A stretch of DNA of 64,000 nucleotides from Planctomycetaceae bacterium (GTDB lineage: Bacteria; Planctomycetota; Planctomycetia; Pirellulales; Pirellulaceae). Of the stretch, positions 19,730 through 23,857 are shown one piece after another. Positions within the stretch are counted from its first letter, which is position 1. Every line of letters begins with the position of its first letter. The notes beneath the pieces are model-generated. The model was given only the letters and a program-made list of their open reading frames with translations, searched no databases and was not told the DNA's origin. The stretch is from assembly GCA_018660825.1 (NCBI GenBank), contig JABJJO010000045.1, positions 17,505-81,504 on the forward strand, read 5' to 3'. The position numbers were made by a program, and so were the translations under genes.

Positions 19730-20236
19730 CTATCTGTGGGGCACAATCATGCAAGTCATGCGACGCCCATGTTGTACCGGCGTCTGTTCGATCTTGCCGT
19801 GTTCAGACAAGTCCTTGACAACGTCGTCCATCACTTTACGACCTTCGTCAATGTGAGCCATCTCGCGGCCGCGAAACTGCACGGTGATCTGGACTTTGTC
19901 TTTGTTATCAAGAAACTTCTTAGCTTGATTTACTTTGAAATCAATATCATGTTTTCCCGTCTTTGGCCGCAGGCGTACTTCTTTTGTTTTCGAGCTATGT
20001 GCGGTATTCTTATTCGCTTTTTTCTTTTTCTCGTATTTGTATTTACCGTAGTCCATAATCCGACAAACCGGTGGATTTTCATTCGGAGCGACTTCGACTA
20101 AATCTAGGCCAGCTTCAATGGCAATTTCTTTAGCTCGGTCAGTCTCAATAACTCCTAGTTGCTCCCCATCATGGTCGATGACGCGGATGGGTGAAATTCG
20201 AATATAGTCATTAACACGAGGTGCGTTGCGATCGAT
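19730..20236 (-). CDS. infC: Translation initiation factor IF-3 (proposed AUC start at 20236-20234; track ORF extends to TTG at 20281)
   Basis: [29 protein letters not shown]...[28 protein letters not shown]...[20 protein letters not shown]. Confidence 0.93.
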
Positions 20237-20399
20237 GACGGGTGTCCTTTTTATAAAACATGGAATAGCTTCGTGGAACAAACGATTCCACCTATTACTT
20301 TATTCTATCGATAATTTGTTTAAATGGGGAAGCGGCAAAACAAAAAACATCCATTCTCACTAACGTTTTTTGGAGCCTTTTTACGCCATTGGTACTAAT

Positions 20400-22400
20400 T
20401 TAGTACTCGTTTTGCGAACCTTTGGCCACGAAACCTGCACTGCCACTAAACGACTGGCGAACAACCCGATCCTTTATCTCGGTCTGCAGTTTGGCAATCG
20501 CCTCGACAATTGGCACCGCTCCCAAATCGCCTTCAATACGATCACGAATAGCCACTTGCCCCGATTCCATTTCTCGTCCACCAAGAATGAGCATGTAGGG
20601 TATTAATTCAAGCTGCGCATCTCGAATTTTCGCGCCAATCTTCTCTGCTCGATAATCCGTGCCCACACGTAACCCAACCGCTTTCAATTGTTGCTCGACC
20701 TGTCGCCCGTACTCTTCAAATTTTTCACTAACTATCAAAACTCGCACTTGTTCTGGTGCTAACCATAACGGGAAGGCGCCAGCAAAATGCTCAATCAACA
20801 TTCCAATGAACCGTTCCATCGACCCCAACGGTGCGCGATGAATCATCACTGGAATATGGGACATGTTATCTGTGCCAACATACTCCAAAGCGAAGCGTTC
20901 ATCACTTGGTAAATTGTAGTCCAGTTGAACCGTACCAAGTTGCCATTCCCGTCCTAAGCAATCCGTCAGTACAAAATCTGCTTTCGGGCCATAGAAAGCT
21001 GCTTCGCCTTCTTCACACTCAGCTTCAATTCCTAATGTTTGACAAACTTCAATCAGTGATTTTTCAGCATGGTCCCACAACTTAGGTGAACCAACATATT
21101 TGTCACTTTGTGGATCACGAAATCCTAAACGCACACGGTAGTTATCCAGCCCTAGGCTCTTAAGTACAAACTGCGTCATCTCGATGCAGCCCATAAACTC
21201 CGCAGGAACTTGATCGGCTGTACAAAAAATATGCGCGTCGTCCTGCGTGAAGCCACGAACTCGCGTCATCCCGTTTAATTCACCTGATTGTTCATTTCTG
21301 TAAACCGTTCCGAATTCCGCCAACCGTAAAGGTAACTCACGATAACTACGCGGGTTAGCTTTATAAATCATAATGTGATGCGGGCAATTCATTGGCTTAA
21401 GTAAGTACTCGTTGCCATCTTCCATTTTTATTGGCGCGAACATGCTGTCTTTGTAGTACGGATAATGTCCCGACTTTTCATACAAATCTATTTTGCCAAT
21501 GTTCGGTGTATAAACTGGTTGGTAACCCCGGTTCTGCAGTTCATCGCGAATGAAGTTTTCCAGAGTGCTGCGAATAATCGCTCCTTTGGGTTGCCACAAA
21601 ATCAAGCCGGCACCAACGAGGGGGCTGATCGTAAACAGATTGAGTTGTTTACCCAATGTGCGGTGGTCACGGCGTTTGGCCTCTTCGATAAGAACCAAAT
21701 GTTCTGCTAGATCTTCCTTGTTGAAAAATGCCGTCGCATATACCCGTTGCAGCTGTTTGTTACTTGAGTCGCCTTTCCAGTAGGCGCCGGCAACGCTTAA
21801 CAATTTGTAGGCACCCACAGCGCCTGCGGAGGGGATGTGAGGGCCGCGACAAAGGTCAATAAATTCACCTTGCCGATAAAACGACAATTGATCGTGGTCC
21901 GCTAGGCCCTCACTGATATGCTCGACTTTATATTCTTGAGCAAGATCTTCCACGATATCAATCGCTTCTGTGCGTGTCGTCTCAATCCGTTCAAAAACCT
22001 CATTCGCTTTAATAATCGTTTTCATCTCAGCTTCGATCGCTGCGAAATCTTCTTCGCTTAATGCATGCTCAAGATCAAAATCGTAGTAAAAACCATTTTC
22101 GATCGTCGGACCAAACGCAAGTTGCACACCTGGAAATAACTTCATAATGGCTCGAGCCATTATATGTGCAGCCGAATGGCGCATCACACCCAATGCTTCT
22201 GGGTCTTTTTTTGTCAGAATTCGTAGTGCGACACTTTGACCATCGTCGATAACGAAGTCTAAGCCAACAATCGTATCGTCGACTGCAGCTGCCAAGGCTG
22301 CTTTTGCTAGGCCAGGACCAATTTCTGCGGCTATTTGGCCAGGGGTAATTGATTCAGAATATTCTCGAGTGGAACCGTCAGGTAAGGATACCGTAAGCAT
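20400..22400 (-). CDS. thrS: Threonine--tRNA ligase
   Basis: TGS domain; [62 protein letters not shown]. Confidence 0.96.
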
Positions 22401-23013: not shown

Positions 23014-23217
23014 ATGCCTAAACAAAAGACCCATAAGGGAACCAAAAAGCGTTTTCGACTATCTGCTAAAGGCAAAGCGAAGCACCGTAGTGCTGGTACA
23101 AGCCATTTAGCTGGAGCCGTTTCCAAAAAACGTAGACGTAATCTGCGTGGAACGACGGTTCAAGCCGAAGTTGACGAAAAGAAGATCGCTCGAGCCCTCA
23201 ACGGCTACAGTAACTGA
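23014..23217 (+). CDS. rpmI: 50S ribosomal protein L35
   Basis: MPKQKTHKGTKKRFRLSAKGKAKHRSAGTSHL; next to rplT. Confidence 0.94.
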   Translation: MPKQKTHKGTKKRFRLSAKGKAKHRSAGTSHLAGAVSKKRRRNLRGTTVQAEVDEKKIARALNGYSN

Positions 23218-23330
23218 TTTTCGCAACTCCTGCAGCTTCAGCGCAGCGGGACAATAACTCGCTTGTGTTTCCCGAATATCTCAATCGATATTCAAACAAG
23301 ACAATTTGACAACTAAAAGTAACATACTCC

Positions 23331-23412
23331 GTTGCGTGGGCAGTAGAACGTTTTCCTAAAGTGCATAAAAACACTTTATATATGGAAAAGGCCTGACGTA
23401 ACCCACTGCGAA
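23331..23412 (+). promoter_or_regulatory. Candidate structured leader of rplT (L20-leader-like)
   Basis: Nested helices TTGCGTGGG/CCCACtGCGA, TTTTCC/GGAAAA, TAAAGTG/CACTTTA ending just before the SD AAGGA and the rplT ATG (23429). Confidence 0.55.
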
Positions 23413-23428
23413 AGCAAGGAATTAGAAA

Positions 23429-23785
23429 ATGAGAACTCGTAAAGGTGCCGCGCGTACCAAAGCTAAAAGACGTCTATTTAAACGTGCCAAAGGGAATGCT
23501 GGGGGTCGTAGCCACCTAATTCGGACCGTAAAAGAAACACTCATCCGCTCCGGTGCGTACTCCTTTCGTGACCGTAAAGTCCGAGCCCGAGATTTCCGCC
23601 GCTTATGGATCACTCGTATCAATGCCGCTTGTCGCGCTCATGACCTACGTTACAGTCAATTCATTAACGGCTTGAATAAAGCTGACATTGAATTGGATCG
23701 TAAATCACTTAGCGAAATGGCAATTCATGACCCAGCAGCATTTGAAGCCGTTGTCGAACTTGCCAAAGCTGCTCTTGCCGCATAA
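23429..23785 (+). CDS. rplT: 50S ribosomal protein L20
   Basis: [37 protein letters not shown]...[12 protein letters not shown]. Confidence 0.96.
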
Positions 23786-23817: not shown

Positions 23818-23857
23818 GAACAGGAGAGGCAAGTCGCAAGACTTTTCTCTCCTGTTC
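23818..23857 (+). terminator. Strong hairpin between rplT and pheS (terminator, attenuator or processing site)
   Basis: GAACAGGAGAG-gc-AAGTC-gcaa-GACTT-tt-CTCTCCTGTTC then TTATAT; 11 bp perfect plus 5 bp. Confidence 0.6.

Follow-up and report, generated by a model that had tools for sequence, protein, structure and literature searches.

Between rpmI and rplT of a Pirellulaceae metagenome assembly, we identified a two-helix RNA element (23332-23401 of the window, the whole 64,000-nt stretch of DNA analyzed here) with a conserved, covarying structure, an invariant core and a tie to rplT. The element is most probably an L20 autoregulatory leader in the rpmI-rplT mRNA, at which, as judged from sequence comparison, L20 would bind a mimic of its 23S rRNA site and block rplT translation. 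The gene order on the + strand is rpmI, a 211-nt spacer, rplT, and then pheS and pheT, and a hairpin with a U-rich tail located 3′ of rplT probably acts as an intrinsic terminator that ends the rpmI-rplT transcript and separates it from pheST. The genes infC and thrS (19730-22400) lie on the strand opposite to rpmI-rplT, and thus the usual infC-rpmI-rplT operon is split here. Coordinates of all features are collected in the table.

Table. Features of the rpmI-rplT locus and of the RNA element in its spacer (window coordinates).
Feature	Position	Strand	Evidence or remark
rpmI (ribosomal protein L35, 67 aa)	23014..23217	+	ORF; tblastn to relatives' rpmI
P1 lower 5′ strand UUGCGU, partner 23396-23401	23332..23337	+	covarying helix 1; covariance model match 23330-23406
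P1 upper 5′ strand GGGC	23338..23341	+	both G-C pairs in 73/73
Unpaired 5′-side strand AGUAGAACG with invariant AA (23347-23348) and C23349	23342..23350	+	AA 73/73, C 72/72
P2 5′ strand UUUUCC, extended by lineage-specific UAAAGUG (23357-23363)	23351..23356	+	
P2 3′ strand GGAAAA, 5′ of it CACUUUA (23372-23378) and a UAUAU bulge	23384..23389	+	
G-GCCU-G: invariant G23390, GCCU paired with GGGC, bulged G23395	23390..23395	+	
P1 lower 3′ strand ACGUAA	23396..23401	+	covariance model match, covariation
Shine-Dalgarno (SD) AAGGA of rplT	23416..23420	+	14 nt 3′ of element end (23401)
rplT (ribosomal protein L20, 118 aa), presumed ligand and target	23429..23785	+	ORF; rplT located in 143/148 relatives
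Hairpin with U-rich tail 3′ of rplT, likely terminator ahead of pheS	23818..23857	+	-27.3 kcal/mol, z = -9.0

The consensus of the element reads P1-GGGY-(2-9 nt)-AAC-P2-G-RCCU-P1′. In the window copy, the conserved outer helix P1 joins TTGCGTGGGC (23332-23341) with GCCTGACGTAA (23391-23401), leaving G23395 bulged, and its two invariant G-C pairs, G23339-C23393 and G23340-C23392, are flanked by G23338.U23394 on one side and on the other by C23341-G23391, the pair above them, which covaries from C-G to U-A. The core reads GGGC-AGUAG-AACG. All segments quoted in the original prediction were found where it had placed them and the element itself is real; its structure, however, is corrected here relative to the first drawing. 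The two inner helices proposed, TTTTCC/GGAAAA and TAAAGTG/CACTTTA, both exist and form P2, which is conserved and covaries, but the TAAAGTG extension is restricted to the window and its closest relative. Although the sequence permits the proposed outer helix TGCGTGGG/CCCACTGCGA in the window and a sister genome, no other member of the genus or order can form it; it was therefore rejected as not conserved, and the pairing of GCGTGGGC with GCCTGACGT in P1 takes its place. With the conserved P1 at 23332-23341/23391-23401, what had been described as a large asymmetric internal loop becomes a mostly one-sided loop formed by AGTAGAACG of the 5′ strand, since GGCCTGACGT is base-paired. The conserved element also stops at 23401, 14 nt ahead of AAGGA, rather than 3 nt before the SD as first thought. 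Immediately 5′ of the SD, within 23402-23415, lies a TGC-GAAA-GCA tetraloop hairpin, which in the rest of the genus is found 3′ of the SD. An alternative fold, in which CCCAC directly 3′ of the element pairs with GTGGG of P1, is available in the window and the sister genome only.

The folding energy of 23320-23430 exceeds that of shuffled sequences (z = -2.5, with 4/200 shuffles as good), a modest value that is suggestive and not decisive alone. For the window copy, the best fold containing P1 and P2 reaches -25.1 kcal/mol versus -25.7 kcal/mol for the free minimum, a rival fold; these energies are nearly equal, so the choice of P1 rests on cross-species comparison. Two alignments were used for this, a seed of 34 sequences aligned by MAFFT without the model and a larger set of 73 sequences aligned with the covariance model, the counts of the latter leaning towards the structure because the model was used to build it. 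Double changes were found in 14/17 pairs in both alignments alike. In the 73-sequence alignment, 387 double-change cells were counted versus 140.9 in shuffles, the covariation score was 0.656 versus 0.215 shuffled, and 86.5% of the cells were paired versus at most 54.4% when the partner was slid by 1-3 columns; the seed, in which the model played no part, gave the same picture (82.2% versus at most 55.7%). Pair 12-97, for example, switches from C-G to U-A. This indicates that both helices, P1 and P2, covary strongly. Against this background of change, the two consecutive G-C pairs and the AA of the loop were retained in 73/73 sequences, and the C after the AA and the G after P2 each in 72/72. 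Compensatory changes, on whose presence in relatives' spacers the original prediction had staked its candidate L20 leader, thus proved abundant and, together with the tie to rplT and an invariant core carrying two features of the L20 site, support that proposal. A chance folding without function would be compatible with the modest z-score taken by itself; for the conserved core it is refuted by the covariation, and excluded also by the distribution described below, which leaves it a practically negligible probability.

To follow the element across relatives, rplT was located in 143/148 of them as well as in 80 contigs of public genomes, and upstream regions were compared among the loci retrieved. 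By covariance model or strict pattern, the element was present in 88/109 distinct Pirellulales rplT upstream regions, while 12/109 gave a loose match only and 9/109 nothing. The strict pattern, comprising the core and a 5-bp P2, was matched in 63/92 listed loci versus 1.35 in shuffles, or about one chance match per 90. Within the nearest genus, GCGTGGGC..AACGTTTTC..GAAAAGGCCTGACG is nearly unchanged and the rest of the spacer is poorly conserved, and among relatives P2 varies in length, the linker spans 2-9 nt, and the distance from the end of G-RCC to the start codon has a median of 31 nt. Carriers in culture include Rhodopirellula solitaria, Rhodopirellula sallentina, Botrimarina and Aeoliella, which makes the L20 leader hypothesis testable.

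The covariance model found a single match in the window (23330-23406, E = 7e-7), and one in the whole of its own genome. Across 147 genomes of the order it gave 45 matches at E ≤ 0.01, and 20 of the 21 at this threshold for which the position of rplT is known sit directly upstream of that gene. In a phylum sample searched with strict filters, matches fell in Pirellulales genomes only, and the model found none in 40 rplT regions of other Planctomycetia groups. One weak pattern match in another Planctomycetia order (locus L138) was judged to be chance. Other Planctomycetia families (L127-L156) have long rpmI-rplT spacers (55-321 nt) that lack the Pirellulales element, and these may hold a different L20 leader.

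L20 leaders are known in three unrelated scaffolds, those of Gammaproteobacteria, Firmicutes and Deltaproteobacteria. If the present reading is true, Planctomycetota would contribute a further scaffold built around the two recognition features of the others, which would make this a clear example of one protein site having been invented repeatedly. The Pirellulales element is probably such a separate L20 leader scaffold, apparently undescribed, independently evolved and confined to Pirellulales, with a one-sided AAC loop between freely covarying helices and with rplT alone, instead of rpmI-rplT, under its control. A search of the open-licence literature (subscription journals were outside its scope) found no planctomycete leader for L20 or any ribosomal protein. 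Two consecutive G-C pairs and an AA dimer are common to the known L20 leaders and to the rRNA site (PMC7247131), and the same two features, the AA being unpaired, are invariant in the Pirellulales element; such a two-feature signature is small. Closest in kind is L20-Deltaproteobacteria RF03126 (Eckert and Weinberg 2020, PMC7247131), likewise a small leader ahead of the L20 gene with two G-C pairs and an AA dimer and a proposed rRNA mimic; its part-consensus, however, is the hairpin CcGcGaGGAAauGUCUCCCCuUgCgG, whereas the Pirellulales AA is part of a one-sided loop that separates two covarying helices. RF03126 had no match in 9/10 Pirellulales genomes, and in the tenth a single partial match, below threshold, lay elsewhere in the genome.

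In E. coli, translation is repressed when L20 binds to an H40-H41 imitation; the site is placed before rpmI and represses rpmI, with rplT being reached via translational coupling (PMC6962249). Unlike that operator, which consists of a pseudoknot site and a second site, the Pirellulales element is a simple nested two-helix RNA placed after rpmI and directly before rplT, and its nested P1/P2 structure accounts for the covariation without a pseudoknot. The Firmicutes L20_leader RF00558, whose mRNA is bound by L20 at a junction of helices similar to the rRNA site of the protein, would be similar in that L20 binding is also predicted for the Pirellulales element; it is, however, located upstream of infC and, as established by mechanistic study, acts via a rho-independent terminator (PMC6097659). 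The Pirellulales element sits between rpmI and rplT. Transcription attenuation in the Bacillus subtilis style is very improbable for it, since in most relatives it is near the start codon (the median of 31 nt given above), and neither a terminator nor a sigma-70-like promoter was found between it and rplT in the window. RF00558 itself had no match at E ≤ 10, and no intrinsic terminator was found by the element; the original prediction had likewise set it apart from the Firmicutes leader, and the lack of matches to the Rfam L20 models bears this out.

For comparison with 23S rRNA, sequences were drawn from relatives, as the assembly's own genome has no 23S gene. Eight Pirellulaceae copies of the 23S site were examined, and two stacked G-C pairs (Rfam positions 1071:1165 and 1072:1164) were read off one copy and are sequence-conserved in the others. 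The 3′ strand of these pairs is followed by a short linker, GAUAAUG, and then by AACGGG (in one copy, AUCGGG), that is, it continues GAUAAUGAACGGG. The leader thus resembles H40-H41, to which the original prediction had proposed to compare it, in that one strand of two stacked G-C pairs is connected on its 3′ side to AAC by a short linker. It differs in that the order of the G-C strands is reversed (GG then AA in the leader, CC then AA in Pirellulaceae 23S), in that its linker is variable (2-9 nt), and in that P2 has no counterpart of conserved sequence. One rRNA reads GAUAAUGAUCGGG, and the AA of the leader is not yet matched to one particular rRNA AA. Identity of exact sequence was rejected, as an exact-match search gave only short chance words. 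The mimicry is therefore structural, a topological resemblance in which the G and C strands have changed places. Because of this and of the ambiguous counterpart of the AA, L20 binding, and with it repression of translation initiation, is what we infer, in the case of binding strongly.

Under the L20 leader reading, the two stacked G-C pairs atop P1, the short one-sided loop and the AAC leading into P2 would imitate the H40-H41 docking site, such that L20 in excess of free 23S rRNA would bind the mRNA copy. Bound L20 would hold P1 and P2 together about 20-30 nt 5′ of the start codon and would deny the 30S subunit access to the start of rplT; given the median spacing of 31 nt, P1 stabilized by the protein would end about 20-25 nt ahead of the start codon, at the edge of a 30S initiation complex. 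With no terminator ahead of rplT and the element close to the start codon, translational control is the simplest reading, and the position 3′ of rpmI implies that the L20 gene would be controlled and L35 not directly repressed, unlike in E. coli (PMC6962249). Invariant unpaired nucleotides show recognition by something and the sequence does not name the partner, so a conserved rplT leader that binds a small molecule or a different protein (e.g. L35 or another assembly factor) was also considered; this is unlikely, given that the only occurrence of the element in its own genome is upstream of rplT, that its core fits the published L20 determinants (PMC7247131), and that Rfam scans of the window and the spacer matched no family, riboswitches included. 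A ligand-free stability or processing element, for instance a stem related to RNase III or RNase E that sets the ratio of rplT to rpmI, would suit an intergenic position between two ribosomal protein genes that are presumably transcribed together, and a P2 of variable length, yet such a stem would need neither an invariant one-sided AAC loop nor two fixed G-C pairs within freely covarying helices, and we consider it quite improbable.

In one sub-lineage (loci L055, L058 and L062), a second hairpin, GGGTTCC..GGGACC, occurs 3′ of the element and ahead of the rplT start codon, where it possibly masks the SD; shorter GGTTCC tracts are present in loci L066 and L075.
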